Shown: piece by piece, positions 3,897 through 38,647 of the stretch | Position numbering within the stretch: the first letter of the stretch is position 1 | How the letters are laid out: each line of letters starts with the position of its first letter | From: Loktanella sp. SALINAS62 | Lineage (GTDB): Bacteria > Pseudomonadota > Alphaproteobacteria > Rhodobacterales > Rhodobacteraceae | Assembly (NCBI RefSeq): GCF_018263905.1 | Contig: NZ_JAAFZU010000030.1 | Coordinates: 1-64,000, forward strand | Reading direction: 5' to 3' | Length of the DNA: 64,000 bases | The notes under the pieces: model-generated | Seen by the model: the letters and a program-made list of their open reading frames with translations, nothing else | Databases searched by the model: none | What the model was told of the DNA's origin: nothing | Position numbers and translations under genes: made by a program

Positions 3897-4955
3897 TTAG
3901 AGACAATCCGCCAGAGCGGTCGCCAAATTCCGCAGCATGTCAGGATAGAGCGCGGCACCCGGTTCAAGGTCGGACCCCAACGGATCAAGCACACCGCTGC
4001 GCGCGGGAGACCCATCCATGACGGCGGCCATGATGCCAGGATTGAACTGTGGTTCTGACAGCACGCAGGTCACGTCTTGCTGTGCGACACGCGCCTGAAT
4101 TTCAGCAACCCGCGACGGACTGGGATCGGTCGCGTCCGACACGGAAATCGCGCCCGATGACGGGAAGTCGAATGCGTTTTCAAAATATTGAAAGGCATCA
4201 TGAAAGACGATGAACTGAGCGTCGCGCACAGGGGCCAGAATGGCGTCAATCTCTGCACGCAGGCTATCCAGTTCCTGCTGTCCCGCATCGGCGTTGGCGG
4301 TATAGGTCGCGGCATTTTCAGGGTCCGCATCAGACAAGGCCCGTGCGATCACATCCAGCCAGACCGACGCGTTGTCTGGGGATAGCCACGCATGCGGATC
4401 ATGGTCGCCGTGATCGTGTTCGGCGTCGTCACTGGCGTGATCATCTGCGTGGTCGTCATGACCTGCGGCGTGATCATCTGCGTCGCCTGCATGATCGTCA
4501 GTATGTTCGGCGTCATGATCATCATGATCGGCGTGATCTTCGCTGTGTTCGGCAGTGTCGTCGTTTTCATGCGCGTGGACTTCGAACAGGGCACCCTCGC
4601 GGACGGGCAGTTCTGTCGTGCCCTCTGTTTCCAGCAGTTCGAACACAGCCGCATTGGTGGCCAGCGTGCCGATCGCGTCACCCAACCAAGGCGTCAGGTC
4701 TGCGCTGACCCAAAATACAAGGTCAGCCCCCTGCAATGCTGCGGCTTCTGACGGGCGCAGGCTGTATTCATGCGGGGTTGCACCGGGGGCCACGATCAAC
4801 GACGGCGCACCGACACCATCCATGACGCGGGCCACCAGCGAATGAACCGGGGCGATATCGACCGCGACAGCGGGCGCATCCGCAAGCGCTGTTCCTGCCA
4901 GCAGCGCGGCCGCAGCAGTCAGGGGGGCAAGGTTTCTGGACAAGGGTGTCTCCAT
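3897..4955 (-). CDS. znuA: Zinc ABC transporter substrate-binding protein ZnuA
   Basis: 352 aa from the ATG at 4953-4955; a longer reading exists but would run through the promoter and Zur-box-like region. There is a hydrophobic leader of about 25 residues, then the cluster A-I metal-binding fold. Zinc ligands recognisable by position are His in ATPHEYSLRPS, His in DPHAWLSP and His in VFHDAFQYF. Between the first two is the ZnuA hallmark, an unusually long His/Asp-rich loop (about 65 residues, roughly 22 His). It delivers periplasmic Zn2+ to ZnuB. Divergent from zur, with the two ATGs 44 bases apart and the Zur-box-like site between. Confidence 0.95.
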   Translation of the reverse strand: METPLSRNLAPLTAAAALLAGTALADAPAVAVDIAPVHSLVARVMDGVGAPSLIVAPGATPHEYSLRPSEAAALQGADLVFWVSADLTPWLGDAIGTLATNAAVFELLETEGTTELPVREGALFEVHAHENDDTAEHSEDHADHDDHDAEHTDDHAGDADDHAAGHDDHADDHASDDAEHDHGDHDPHAWLSPDNASVWLDVIARALSDADPENAATYTANADAGQQELDSLRAEIDAILAPVRDAQFIVFHDAFQYFENAFDFPSSGAISVSDATDPSPSRVAEIQARVAQQDVTCVLSEPQFNPGIMAAVMDGSPARSGVLDPLGSDLEPGAALYPDMLRNLATALADCL

Positions 4956-34034: not shown

Positions 34035-34673
34035 TCACCAGCGCAACAGGATGCTGCCAGCGACAGCCCCGACAACGGCGACCCCGATGATCGCAAGGCT
34101 ATACCAAATGCCGTAAAATAAGGCAGAGTTTTCAACGCAGTAAAGCGAATAGATCGTGGTCGCAAAGCCTGCCGCAGCCAGTCCCCCCACCGCGCCGCAT
34201 GTTGCGGGGTGTTCCGGCGCACCGCGTCGCAGGGCCAGCAGGATCAGGGCAAGGATCGGGGCCGACAACAGCGGGATCGACAGCAGGCAGGTCGTGATGG
34301 ATTTCCCCATGATCGCCATCTGCCATCCCGCGCTGGGTGTGACGATCAGGGTCGCCAGCATATAAATTGCCAGCACGGCGGGCACCAGCCAGATCGCGCG
34401 GCCTGCCCGACTGCGCCCCGCCGGACGCGCCTTGGCCAAGGTCAAAGCCAAGGCCGCCAGCCCCAACGCCAGTGGCAGCACCGATTTGGCAAACAAGGAT
34501 ACGTCCTGAAGGATCACACCGGGGTCGGACCGGATACCCCAGAACAGCCCGAACGATGCAAGCGCCGCGACACAGCCGCCGCCCAGTGCCAACAGAACAC
34601 CGTTGGTCAGTTGACCCTGTCGCACAGGCGTCAGTTCAGACCCCAAGCCGGTAATCAGATCATCCGTATTCAT
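34035..34673 (-). CDS. nrsF: NrsF-type membrane anti-sigma factor (DUF1109)
   Basis: 212 aa, six predicted membrane segments (about residues 25-50, 65-80, 95-110, 125-150, 160-180 and 185-210). This topology, the opening TDDLITGLGSELTPVR and the location immediately after an ECF sigma gene (4-base overlap) identify the NrsF/DUF1109 family. In Caulobacter NrsF holds SigF at the membrane until metal or oxidative stress releases it. Cysteines in the loops (for example TTCLLS and LYCVENS) are candidates for sensing. It is encoded opposite the bufferin operon. Confidence 0.88.
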   Translation of the reverse strand: MNTDDLITGLGSELTPVRQGQLTNGVLLALGGGCVAALASFGLFWGIRSDPGVILQDVSLFAKSVLPLALGLAALALTLAKARPAGRSRAGRAIWLVPAVLAIYMLATLIVTPSAGWQMAIMGKSITTCLLSIPLLSAPILALILLALRRGAPEHPATCGAVGGLAAAGFATTIYSLYCVENSALFYGIWYSLAIIGVAVVGAVAGSILLRW

Positions 34674-35260
34674 TTTCTGGCCTTCTTCTTGTTCTGGGTC
34701 TTGTTTTGGGTCGATTGTTGCCTGTCATGCGTCACCAGTGCGGTCAGCCGTCCCAGCGCACGATGCAACGCCACGCGGATGGCACCGGGGGTCATCCCCA
34801 CTTGATCGCCAACCTCTTCGGCGGTTGACCCATGCAGCTTGATCTGGCGGACGATCGTGGCCGATGTGGTGTCCAGTTGATCCAGCAGGCGTTCCAGATC
34901 GCCCACGACGGTTGGATCATGCACTGTGTCGTCCGGGTATTCAGTTTCCGCACCATCAAAAGCCACCAGACGGCTGCGCCCGGTCTTGCGCAGCGCATCG
35001 ACGGTTTTGTACCGCGCAATCGCATAAACCCACGCCGTTGCCGGTTCCGTGTCGCGCCACGTGTGCCGTTTTTCATGGATGGCAATCAGGACGTTTTGCA
35101 AGATGTCTTCGCATTCGCTGTTCTGGCCGCCACTGCGCGCGACAATGACGCCACGCAGGACAGGCGCGATTTCTTTCAAAAAGACGACATAGGCTTTGCG
35201 GTCGCCACCATTGGCTTTGCGCAGCAGCTCCGACCACCGGATGTCTTTTGTCGATCTCAT
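34670..35260 (-). CDS. sigF: ECF sigma factor, SigF-like
   Basis: 196 aa from the ATG at 35258-35260. Region 2 includes EDILQNVLIAIHEKRHTWR and AWVYAIARYKTVDALRK; region 4 has TAEEVGDQVGMTPGAIRVALHRALGRL. The tail is Lys/Gln-rich. A longer ATG 9 bases upstream overlaps the predicted -10 element, so the shorter start is preferred; it then lies 7 nt from that element and the message could be leaderless. It is paired with NrsF and divergent from bufA1, as expected for the SigF copper/oxidative stress circuit known from Caulobacter. Confidence 0.9.
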   Translation of the reverse strand: MRSTKDIRWSELLRKANGGDRKAYVVFLKEIAPVLRGVIVARSGGQNSECEDILQNVLIAIHEKRHTWRDTEPATAWVYAIARYKTVDALRKTGRSRLVAFDGAETEYPDDTVHDPTVVGDLERLLDQLDTTSATIVRQIKLHGSTAEEVGDQVGMTPGAIRVALHRALGRLTALVTHDRQQSTQNKTQNKKKARK

Positions 35261-35267
35261 GTTGTCC

Positions 35268-35295
35268 AATTCGCCACGCCCACCGCTTTCGTTAC
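35268..35295 (-). promoter_or_regulatory. SigF-type promoter of sigF-nrsF
   Basis: Reading the minus strand, -35 is GTAACG (35295-35290), then 16 bases, then -10 CGAATT (35273-35268). This is identical in both boxes and spacing to the promoter in front of bufA1, and it agrees with GTAACC-N16-CGAA as I recall it for Caulobacter SigF. It implies autoregulation. The start codon of sigF follows 7 nt after the -10. Confidence 0.82.
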
Positions 35296-35383
35296 ACCGC
35301 CCCCGAAAGAAAAATCATGCAAAGCGGACAGGGACGAAAACAAAATCAGTTTTATGTCAGGACTTCACGAAAACGCGAGCCTT

Positions 35384-35411
35384 GTAACGGAACCGCAGGC
35401 CACGGCGAATT
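35384..35411 (+). promoter_or_regulatory. SigF-type promoter of the bufferin operon
   Basis: -35 GTAACG (35384-35389), 16-base spacer (35390-35405), -10 CGAATT (35406-35411). The transcript would start near 35418, leaving a leader of about 45 nt with GGAG (35451-35454) 8 nt before the bufA1 ATG. It matches the divergent sigF promoter letter for letter in both boxes. Confidence 0.85.
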
Positions 35412-35462
35412 GCCTAGCATCGGACGCCAACACGGTGCCGACTGCCAACAGGAGAATTTGAA

Positions 35463-35756
35463 ATGACAAGCAAGACAACCACCCTCGCCCTTGCCATCTT
35501 TGGCGCATGTGCCGCCGTGACCAGCGCCAGCGCGCAGGACATGGAAAAATGTTTCGGCGTGGCACTTGCAGGCGAAAACGGGTGTGCCGCTGGCCCCGGC
35601 ACGACCTGCGCCGGCACGTCGACCATCGATTATCAGGGCAACGCATGGTCGCTGGTCCCCGCAGGCACCTGTGAAGATATGGCTGTTCCCGCCGCTGCTG
35701 ACGGCACCGAGCGTATGGGTTCGCTGGAAGAGCTGGACCGCGACATCCCGGCCTGA
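35463..35756 (+). CDS. bufA1: Bufferin precursor BufA1 (DUF2282 RiPP)
   Basis: 97 aa. A Sec-type signal covers about residues 1-25 ([18 protein letters not shown] region). The mature part has four cysteines at 30, 41, 49 and 70 in the family pattern [19 protein letters not shown] and [13 protein letters not shown]2282 proteins of this kind are bufferins: exported peptides whose cysteines are converted by an MNIO enzyme to thiooxazole groups that bind copper in the periplasm. The maturase genes bufB and bufC follow. The precursor has an unusual acidic C-terminal tail ([12 protein letters not shown]). Transcription is predicted from a SigF-type promoter, and a hairpin follows the stop. Confidence 0.9.
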
Positions 35757-35765
35757 TCCACGTCC

Positions 35766-35793
35766 GCACCGCGTGGCCCTGTCCGCGCGGTGC
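35766..35793 (+). other. Hairpin between bufA1 and bufB
   Basis: GCACCGCG (35766-35773) and CGCGGTGC (35786-35793) form a perfect 8-bp stem with a 12-base loop in the 65-base gap. There is no T-run, and AAGGAG for bufB follows about 20 bases on. It likely lets the precursor message outlast or outnumber the enzyme message. Confidence 0.6.
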
Positions 35794-35821
35794 ATCCCAT
35801 ACCGCAAAAAGGAGCCATCCC

Positions 35822-36667
35822 ATGACACAGCTTCCGGATACTGTCGGAATCGGTTTCAAGCGCAGTCATTACGATGCGTTGCGGACGACCCCGAACAGGT
35901 TGGGTTTTATCGAAGTTCATGCCGAAAATTACATGGGCGACGGCGGCCCGCCGCATGCCCAATTGGACGCATTGCGCCGTGACTATGCGCTATCGGTCCA
36001 CGGTGTCGGCCTGTCCATTGGTGGCGCAGGCCCGCTTGATACCGACCATCTGGCCCGCCTGAAGCGTGTGTGTGACCGCTATGACCCCGAAAGCTTTTCC
36101 GAGCATCTGGCATGGTCCAGCCATAACGATGCGTTCCTGAACGATCTGTTGCCGTTACCCTATGACGATCAGACACTTGCGACGGTCTGCGACCATATCG
36201 ACAGGTTACAGGACGTCATCGGTCGCCGGATGCTGCTGGAAAACCCGTCGACCTATGTGACATTCGAAAGCTCGACCCTTGCGGAAACCGATTTCCTGCA
36301 CGCCATCGTGGGCCGGACCGGCTGCGGTCTGCTGCTGGACGTGAACAATGTCTTTGTCAGTTGCACCAATCACCGGGCCGATCCACGCGCCTATCTGGCA
36401 GACTTCCCACTCGCGGCGGTCGGTGAAATCCATCTGGGCGGTCACGATGCCGAAGATTTGCCATCCGGCCCGCTGCTGATCGATTCCCATGGCGCTGCGG
36501 TGGCAGATCCTGTCTGGACGCTTTACGCCGAAACGGTCGCCATGACAGGCCCGCGCCCGACGTTGATCGAATGGGACAATGATGTGCCGGACCTGCCCGT
36601 TCTGCTGGCAGAGGCTGACCGCGCCGCGACCATTCTGGACGGGGTGCGCCATGCCCGGGCATCTTGA
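35822..36667 (+). CDS. bufB1: Multinuclear non-heme iron oxidative enzyme BufB (DUF692/MNIO)
   Basis: 281 aa. DUF692 TIM-barrel. The family's metal-binding signatures are present in order: [11 protein letters not shown] with [60 protein letters not shown] and [11 protein letters not shown]. These supply the His/Asp/Glu ligands for two or three irons. MNIO enzymes oxidise precursor cysteines; for bufferins the product is a 5-thiooxazole. The ATG has AAGGAG 8 nt upstream. It overlaps bufC by 17 bases, fitting a BufB-BufC complex. Cytoplasmic, so modification precedes export of BufA1. Confidence 0.92.
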
Positions 36668-37391
36668 AACACAGACCGCTTTCCGTGCGGCACTCAATAG
36701 CCGGGATTTGCCACCCGGCATCACCGCAGTCGGTGATCTGGACCGCCGGTTTTCCGTTTATCGCAACACGGTTGCGCATACTTTGTCAGACGCATTGGCC
36801 CAGCGGTTTCCGGCCGTTCAGCGCATCGTGGGCAAGGCATTTTTTCGCCAGACCGCGCGGATCTTCGTGGCGGACAACCCACCGCGTTCGCCGGTTTTGC
36901 AAGATTACGGCACAGAATTTCCGGCGTTTCTGGCAGATTTCCCGCCTGCCGCATCGCTGCCCTATCTGGCGGATGTCGCCTTGATCGAAATGGCTCGCGG
37001 TCAGGCATATCACGCCGCCGATGCCGAGCCGCTTTCCCCGGCCGCGGTCATGTCCCGCATCGGTGCCGCGCCCGACACGGCGCAAGTGACGCTCCATCCG
37101 TCGGTGCGGATGGTCAGTTCACCACATGCGGCTGTGTCGATCTGGCGGATGAACCAACCGGGTGCCGCGGCGACACCGCCACCACCGGGTCCGGAAACCG
37201 CACTGATCTTTCGGCGAGACGATGCATCCGTCGTCCTGCCCATCCCGCCGGATATCGCGCGCACCGTCACGCAGATGCAATCCGGCACGCCGCTGGGTGC
37301 CCTTGGTCATGTTGCTGATGCCGACACTGTCGGAACCGCGTTTTCAACGCTTTTGCAAAACCGGCTGATCGTCGGCCTTTGCCACATCTAG
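36651..37391 (+). CDS. bufC1: BufC, DUF2063 partner of the MNIO enzyme
   Basis: 246 aa from the ATG of [11 protein letters not shown]. The N-terminal DUF2063 domain (about residues 1-105) contains [19 protein letters not shown] and FPAVQRIVG, typical of MNIO partner proteins that bind and present the precursor. The C-terminal half (about 120-246) resembles the RiPP-recognition-like region of such partners, with [16 protein letters not shown] in the middle. It begins inside the end of bufB (17-base overlap), so the two are translated together. Its stop precedes the DoxX gene by 13 bases. Confidence 0.88.
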
Positions 37392-37404
37392 GAAAGAGAA
37401 CCCC

Positions 37405-37881
37405 ATGTCACAGACCATCGCCCATTCCCGTGCCGATTCACGCCTTGCCGGGTTGCGCCGCATGGTCCGTATGGTGAACGACATGTTCGGACGCCTGCCT
37501 TGGGCTGTGCCTGCCCTGATGGCGCGACTGATCCCGGCATGGGTCTTTTGGGCGTCCGCCCGCACAAAGGTTGACGGGTTCGCCATCGCGGACAGCACGT
37601 GGTGGCTGTTTGAAAATGAATACGCACTGCCGATCATTCCCGCCGCCGCTGCCGCCGTTCTGGCCACAGTGGCAGAGCATGTCTTTGCCGTTACGCTGGC
37701 ACTTGGGTTTTTTACACGCCTGCCAGCGGCAGCTTTGTTGGGCATGACAATCGTCATTCAGGTGTTCGTCTACCCAACCGCATGGGTGACGCATGGGCTG
37801 TGGGCGGCCTGTTTTCTTGTGATCGTCGCGCGTGGACCCGGATGGCTTTCGCTGGATCGCCTGCTGCGGCTGGATCGCTGA
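37405..37881 (+). CDS. DoxX family membrane protein of the bufferin operon
   Basis: 158 aa, four hydrophobic segments (about residues 25-45, 60-85, 90-110 and 115-140). The sequence is DoxX-like: [18 protein letters not shown], then [20 protein letters not shown]. DoxX proteins regularly form the fourth gene of bufferin operons; the function is unproved but may be quinone-linked redox support or export. Follows bufC with AGGAAAGAG before the ATG. Confidence 0.86.
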
Positions 37882-38047: not shown

Positions 38048-38647
38048 ATGAAAAAAGAAAACGGCGCACTGACGGACGTCATCGACGAGCTGAAAAAGGC
38101 GTCGCAAGGCGCGGATCATGTCCAGGTCGGGCACCTGATCGACGCGCTGGATTATCGCGGCTACGGTCCGGCATTGGCAGCCCTGCCGTTGATGGAACTG
38201 ACGCCCATCGGGGGCATTCCCGGTTTTCCAACACTGCTGGCGCTGACGCTTGCCATTTTGGTGATCCGGCTTTTGCTGGGGTATGAACATTTCTGGGCGC
38301 CAGACTGGCTGCGGCGACGCACGCTTGATTCCGGCAGGGTCATAAAGTCCGTTGAATGGCTAAAACCGATCTCGCAGCGGATCGATGCAAAGCTGCACAA
38401 ACGCTTTTCAGTCTTCGCGGGCGCGGCTGGCCGCCGGGCGGCCTGCTTCGTGATCTTGGGGCTTCTTCTGACCGTGCCACCGCTTGAGGTCGTGCCGTTT
38501 GCGACATCTGGCCCGATGATCGTGATCGCCACCTTCGGTCTTGGACTGCTTTATTGCGACGGCTTGCTGATGTTGCTGGGCTTTATCGGTGCGGGCGTCG
38601 CACTTGCCGGTGGTATGTGGGGTTTGCTTGCGTCAGGTGGATCATAA
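38048..38647 (+). CDS. ExoD family membrane protein
   Basis: 199 aa from the ATG that opens MKKENGALTDVIDEL. An N-terminal soluble helix (about residues 1-40), then hydrophobic segments around 45-80, 145-165 and 175-195, with the ExoD pattern PLMELTPIGGIPGFPTLLAL. ExoD of Sinorhizobium affects exopolysaccharide and alkali tolerance; the biochemical role is unknown. It is separated from the DoxX gene by 166 bases, so it is probably its own unit, though read-through is possible. Confidence 0.8.
   Translation: MKKENGALTDVIDELKKASQGADHVQVGHLIDALDYRGYGPALAALPLMELTPIGGIPGFPTLLALTLAILVIRLLLGYEHFWAPDWLRRRTLDSGRVIKSVEWLKPISQRIDAKLHKRFSVFAGAAGRRAACFVILGLLLTVPPLEVVPFATSGPMIVIATFGLGLLYCDGLLMLLGFIGAGVALAGGMWGLLASGGS

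Follow-up and report, generated by a model that had tools for sequence, protein, structure and literature searches.

Bufferins, a family of ribosomally synthesized and post-translationally modified peptides (RiPPs), are encoded by clusters with a core of DUF2282, MNIO, DUF2063 and DoxX genes, which in Buf1 clusters are accompanied by genes for a sigma factor and NrsF; of the bufferin cysteines, the central ones carry a modification and the outer ones are joined in a disulphide (PMC12452194). The closest described counterpart of the locus reported here is sigF-nrsF/CC3254-CC3257 of Caulobacter vibrioides, which comprises nrsF (CC3252), sigF (CC3253) and genes for DUF2282 (CC3254), DUF692 (CC3255), DUF2063 (CC3256) and DoxX (CC3257) proteins, with SigF promoters of the form GTAACC-N16-CGAA and a regulon induced by chromate and cadmium (PMC3511200). 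The Caulobacter SigF regulon is also induced by copper, and a sigF mutant is copper-sensitive (PMC8224329). We analysed the first 64,000 nucleotides of contig NZ_JAAFZU010000030.1 of Loktanella sp. SALINAS62 (hereafter the window), in which all six of these genes recur at positions 34035-37881 with their divergent arrangement, promoter type and both conserved NrsF cysteines.

Since gene order and promoter type are those of the Caulobacter locus, the window operon belongs to a known bufferin kind, and we are confident in reading it as a type-1 bufferin operon, complete and with a SigF/NrsF switch of its own, that works as proposed below. Within its family the operon is unremarkable; of more interest are a palindromic site at the bufA promoter and its spread. 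From this site we conclude that Rhodobacterales bufferin operons, with or without SigF, are probably under a second DNA-binding regulator of CACG-N4-CGTGA palindromes, which may also act on msrP, the gene for the periplasmic methionine sulphoxide reductase. In the source genome MNIO and DUF2282 are each matched once, the precursor has an RD-type tail and sigF is predicted to be near-leaderless, whereas in C. vibrioides there is a further DUF2282/MNIO cluster, and SigF also controls msrPQ (PMC3511200, PMC8224329). The features of the locus are as follows.

34035-34673, minus strand: nrsF, putative membrane anti-sigma factor (Pfam NrsF 169 bits, cut-off 26.8)
34670-35260, minus strand: sigF, extracytoplasmic function (ECF) sigma factor, from its ATG (Sigma70_r2 and r4 above Pfam cut-off; start by promoter and ATG position)
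35270-35296, minus strand: SigF-type promoter of sigF, TGTAAC-N16-GCGAA (-10 element ends 9 nt before the ATG)
35365-35378, plus strand: palindromic site TCACG-AAAA-CGCGA, 4 bp before the -35 element of bufA (predicted to bind a second regulator)
35383-35409, plus strand: SigF-type promoter of bufA, TGTAAC-N16-GCGAA (-10 element ends 53 nt before the ATG)
35463-35756, plus strand: bufA, bufferin-1 precursor, 97 aa (DUF2282 81 bits, cut-off 22.4)
35766-35793, plus strand: GC-rich hairpin between bufA and bufB, 11-bp stem without a T tract
35822-36667, plus strand: bufB, MNIO maturase (MbnB_TglH_ChrH 352 bits, cut-off 25; NCBIfam MNIO_BufB)
about 36651-37391, plus strand: bufC, DUF2063 partner protein of the MNIO enzyme (Pfam DUF2063 89 bits, cut-off 27.2)
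37405-37881, plus strand: doxX, which ends the operon and encodes a membrane protein of the DoxX family (Pfam DoxX 54.5 bits, cut-off 23.6)

An earlier note on this DNA had placed an ECF sigma gene and a DUF1109 gene on the minus strand, and Pfam matches identify these as sigF and nrsF in the order it gave. The DUF692/MNIO, DUF2063 and DoxX genes that it read on the plus strand each exceed their Pfam cut-off, with the DUF2063 protein (PME type 1) and DoxX both present in the cluster, and the hidden Markov model searches it had proposed for DUF2282, DUF692 and DUF2063 matched all three families. BufB passes the NCBIfam threshold for 'MNIO family bufferin maturase' (MNIO_BufB; 380.7 against 310 bits) and can be aligned to MNIO enzymes of known structure (3BWW with an E value of 9e-44, and MbnB entries). 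Two starts were set by hand: the mechanical open reading frame of sigF opens at a TTG at 35269, adjoining the -10 element, and the ATG was preferred; bufC overlaps the end of bufB, and its longest open reading frame runs from 36579. The source genome (3.83 Mb in 101 contigs) has a single DUF2282, a single MNIO (PF05114) and a single NrsF match, all at this locus.

For comparison we assembled 144 loci including the window, after removal of 7 duplicates. These fall into 58 with divergent sigF, 6 with sigF elsewhere nearby and 80 without sigF, where a downstream sigF could be missed in 30 loci available with 1.5 kb flanks only (7 of them dropped or replaced); 80 named loci were picked by similarity to the window's BufB, so that the class proportions are not natural frequencies. 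Loci were sorted as Rhodobacterales-like by record title and family code, a group that includes L126, L147, L160 and L183, which are labelled otherwise. A separate family survey covered 198 sampled genomes, the source genome included. Among 140 BufBs, 27 His, Asp, Glu or Asn residues are each at least 97% conserved, and the window's BufB keeps all of them.

The promoter pattern TGTAAC-N16-GCGAA has exactly two matches in the source genome, at 35270-35296 (minus) and 35383-35409 (plus), diverging toward sigF and bufA. The looser YGTAAC-N17-CGAA is matched in the window at these two places between sigF and bufA and nowhere else, against a mean of 0.21 in shuffles, 2 of 100 of which contained two. 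The hexamer here, GTAACG, is one base off the GTAACC of Caulobacter. With at most one mismatch the promoter is found on the bufA side of 42 of the 58 divergent-sigF loci, and on the sigF side of 42 of the 58. On the NrsF side of the switch, Cys129 and Cys179 are present in 62/62 aligned NrsFs, and the two further cysteines of the window's protein are not conserved among them. The equal spacing of 50 residues matches this pair to Caulobacter C131/C181, the replacement of which increases basal expression of the regulon (PMC3511200). The conserved cysteine pair and the two promoters facing both units bear out the earlier reading of a SigF/NrsF-type regulatory pair.

The first possible start codon of sigF (ATG or GTG) follows the -10 element at 5-14 nt in 30 of the 35 Rhodobacterales-like divergent loci, a set that includes the window. 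As transcription would begin a few nucleotides past the -10 element, hardly any leader would remain, and the sigF mRNA is predicted to be near-leaderless; a Shine-Dalgarno-like string stands between the -10 element and the sigF start in 16/35 loci, so not all sigF mRNAs need be leaderless. The switch can also stand apart from the operon. In one genome (G175) nrsF is about 0.57 Mb from bufA, a sigma gene with a SigF-type promoter occupies the place beside nrsF, and bufA has the promoter CGTAAC-N17-CGAA 51 nt before its start, an arrangement in which the switch would act on bufA from a distance.

Several results weigh against the assignment of the operon and its switch. The NCBIfam equivalog cut-offs are missed for NrsF (92 of 300 bits), HvfC (46 of 142) and HvfX (44 of 80), and BufA has no NCBIfam match at all. 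When up to two mismatches are allowed, the promoter pattern shows no enrichment across the genome (337 and 304 matches, where its reversed form gives 461 and 450), and the Caulobacter SigF regulon answers chromate and cadmium as well as copper (PMC3511200). A genome-wide SigF regulon was rejected for lack of this enrichment of loose matches, and the targets named here are the two divergent units only.

The precursor is as the earlier note described it, a 97-aa DUF2282 protein with Cys30, Cys41, Cys49 and Cys70 in the mature part, behind a signal peptide that was read by eye with cleavage between SASA and QD. Four mature cysteines are found in 142/144 BufAs, that of the window among them. A fifth, Cys16 (35508-35510), lies inside the signal peptide, which raises the question of whether Loktanella BufA could be a lipoprotein processed at Cys16, with the bufferin anchored in the membrane. 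A lipobox-like stretch does precede this cysteine in three Loktanella-type BufAs (IFGAC, ILGAC and LIGAC); however, the stricter lipobox pattern is found in two of the three and not in the window's protein, other relatives have a cysteine there after residues unfit for a lipobox, and a canonical signal peptidase I site (ASA before QD) follows Cys16. Processing at Cys16 is therefore very unlikely.

A natural knock-out is provided by the genome G130, whose DUF2282 protein (L098, about 3932-4201) keeps the first and last cysteines and is without both central ones. This genome has no MNIO match, and sigF and nrsF are present elsewhere in it; the protein fits the central cysteines being kept for the MNIO enzyme. 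The acidic C-terminal tail of BufA had been taken for a possible trait of this lineage, but it proves to be order-wide: an RD-type tail ends 97/115 non-Hyphomicrobiales BufAs, against 4/29 of those from Hyphomicrobiales. Many Rhizobium-type loci among the Rhizobiaceae loci L128-L172 carry two successive BufA matches, and in these loci the promoter TGTAAC-N17-CGTA stands about 360 nt before the second match.

Between bufA and bufB, a GC-rich stem 8 bp or longer is present in 54/58 divergent-sigF loci, in 6/6 loci with sigF elsewhere and in 64/75 sigF-less loci (the length of the gap led to the exclusion of 5 of the 144 loci). Such a stem forms in 8-13% of shuffles, and in 5 and 10 of 138 control stretches taken from inside genes. 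A terminator-like T-rich tail follows the hairpin in 3 loci. Folding energies are less striking, with z below -2 in 33/58, 4/6 and 42/75 loci of the three classes and -2.75 in the window. We infer that the hairpin keeps the precursor mRNA above the enzyme mRNA. The words 'hairpin' and 'stem-loop' do not occur in the main text of PMC12452194.

We propose that the operon would work in the following way. Metal stress at the envelope would act on the conserved cysteine pair of NrsF, as the sensing in relatives suggests, and SigF would then be released and, at the two divergent promoters, start transcription of bufABC-doxX and of the near-leaderless operon that encodes it. BufA would be made in excess over its enzymes, possibly aided by the hairpin behind bufA. 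BufB and BufC would convert the central Cys41 and Cys49 into thiooxazoles, by the chemistry of their relatives, and Cys30 and Cys70 would pair as a disulphide. The exported peptide would hold excess copper in the periplasm, again on the model of its relatives, and a second regulator may act at the palindrome beside the bufA -35 element. The copper role of the operon, including copper binding and thiooxazoles, is thus put forward by homology. More distant systems share part of this scheme: in oxazolin/fontiphorin (EGKCG) and in methanobactin, too, an MNIO enzyme and a partner modify copper-binding cysteines (PMC13097082, PMC12452194), but their precursors are different, and with the HvfB, MbnB and ChrH models the window's BufB falls far short of the cut-offs.

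The palindrome of the window, TCACGAAAACGCGA at 35365-35378, has the consensus TCACG-N4-CGYGA. Its conservation was measured in the loci whose bufA has a SigF-type promoter with at most one mismatch (44 Rhodobacterales-like and 7 Hyphomicrobiales). Within 45 bp upstream, TCACG-N4-CGTGA with at most one mismatch occurs in 36 of the 44 Rhodobacterales-like promoters, and with at most two mismatches it stands exactly 4 bp from the -35 hexamer in 35 of them; for either measure dinucleotide shuffles give 0.17%. Most positions of the half-sites carry about 1 bit of information or more, and the columns of the spacer and of the upstream sequence carry almost none. The constant distance would also be explained if the palindrome were an extended part of the SigF promoter and not the site of a second protein. 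Yet at the 4-bp offset it is absent from sigF-side promoters (0/35 Rhodobacterales-like and 0/23 Hyphomicrobiales) and present in 1/7 Hyphomicrobiales bufA promoters. On the sigF side it is found, with at most one mismatch, at another distance in 7/35, since the divergent regions overlap.

The half-sites themselves reach beyond SigF. With at most one mismatch in the 160 nt upstream, where shuffles give 1.7-3.7%, CACG-N4-CGTGA is found at 37/41 SigF-type Rhodobacterales-like bufA genes and at 57/72 SigF-less ones, against 2/23 and 1/6 Hyphomicrobiales bufA genes and 0/144 stretches inside the operon. In the family survey, DUF2282 is matched in 140/198 genomes and NrsF in 30/198 (29 over the cut-off); comparison of the two lists gives 24/140 DUF2282 genomes with an NrsF match and 116/140 without. 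The presence of the half-sites at bufA genes that have no SigF, and the many DUF2282 genomes that have no NrsF match, make an extended SigF promoter an unlikely explanation. Instead, the pattern suggests that the palindrome is the putative site of a regulator common to SigF-type and SigF-less bufA promoters. In the SigF type, where it lies 4 bp upstream of the -35 element, bufA would integrate two signals.

SigF-less Rhodobacterales bufferin-1 operons share with that of the window the core genes bufABC, the hairpin after bufA, an RD-type tail and related CACG-N4-CGTGA half-sites; they differ in that they have no adjacent sigF or nrsF, carry two palindromes in a longer motif and mostly fall in the other half of the BufB tree. 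In this FastTree tree of 140 BufBs (4 of the 144 rows were left out, having no open BufB match of at least 200 aa), one half, which includes the window, holds 52 divergent-sigF, 6 sigF-elsewhere and 11 sigF-less rows, and the other holds 66 sigF-less and 5 divergent-sigF rows. The sigF label changes 10 times on the tree, against a shuffled mean near 45. The longer motif, CGTGA-NN-CACG-N5-GTGA-N-TGG, lies about 80 nt before bufA, and with at most three mismatches it is found in 58/78 SigF-less loci, against 9/780 mononucleotide shuffles and 1/58 divergent-sigF loci. In whole genomes it occurs at 27 places in 20/61 genomes, against 6 for the reversed pattern, and by comparison of coordinates 14 of the 27 places are just upstream of a DUF2282 match. 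No regulator is among the recurrent neighbours of the SigF-less loci; the upstream neighbour in 47/60 is a gene that we take to encode threonyl-tRNA synthetase.

As a first guess, the regulator at the palindrome could be a response regulator of the CusR/HprR kind, because the CusR/HprR box CATTACAAAATTGTAATG at E. coli msrPQ (TTACA-N4-TGTAA) has the same layout as TCACG-N4-CGTGA (PMC9302797). The bases of the two sites differ, and the likeness is one of analogy. The E. coli operon with this box answers copper and HOCl (PMC9302797). In the source genome the response regulator closest to the CopR/SilR model is L227 (contig C78; 250.5 of 279.2 bits), which by reading stands between a gene for an HtrA/DegP-like protease, on its upstream side, and a kinase-like gene downstream. 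At buf and msrP loci this regulator and its kinase are not regular neighbours (5 match lines in 180 loci), so that a role for L227 at the palindrome stays a guess. No published description of the palindrome was found in the open literature, searched mostly without full texts, and it is apparently a control site not described before.

The link to msrP bears on which stress the operon serves. TCACG-N4-CGYGA is not enriched in the source genome (11 matches, against 15 for the reversed pattern), and one of the 11 is upstream of msrP. Across the family, the half-site form of the bufA palindrome, CACG-N4-CGTGA with at most one mismatch, is enriched upstream of msrP (13/30), although this is a minority, the weaker part of the evidence and mostly not exact. 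Since msrP belongs to the Caulobacter SigF regulon (PMC3511200, PMC8224329), which chromate and cadmium induce (PMC3511200), and homologous operons are induced by gold (PMC8224329, PMC12452194), the operon might be a bufferin operon by descent that chiefly answers chromate, cadmium, gold or oxidants of periplasmic methionine, with copper secondary. In Caulobacter, however, loss of sigF impaired growth in copper and left sensitivity to chromate and cadmium similar (PMC8224329). We regard a chiefly non-copper role as improbable and keep copper as the likelier signal. Upstream of the source-genome msrP itself (L212 1480-1641, contig C15), repeats of CGTGA stand 10 bp apart and end in CGTGAATGG, as they do at bufA promoters of the SigF-less type.

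Loktanella salsilacus and Loktanella sp. 3ANDIMAR09 are the closest relatives found (85% and 81% in BufB). None of the six proteins flanking the window's cassette had a match in the few kilobases flanking these two named loci, which places the cassette at different sites in the three Loktanella genomes. An ExoD-family gene (38049-38647) lies downstream of doxX on its strand, beyond a 167-nt gap, and was left out of the operon.

Taken together, these results extend a widespread family of copper-stress RiPPs by a member of Loktanella type. With 116 of the 140 DUF2282 genomes having no NrsF match, the SigF/NrsF switch cannot explain bufferin control in most of them. The hairpin between bufA and bufB offers a testable way for the precursor to outnumber its enzyme, and the palindrome is a concrete bait for finding the proposed second regulator.

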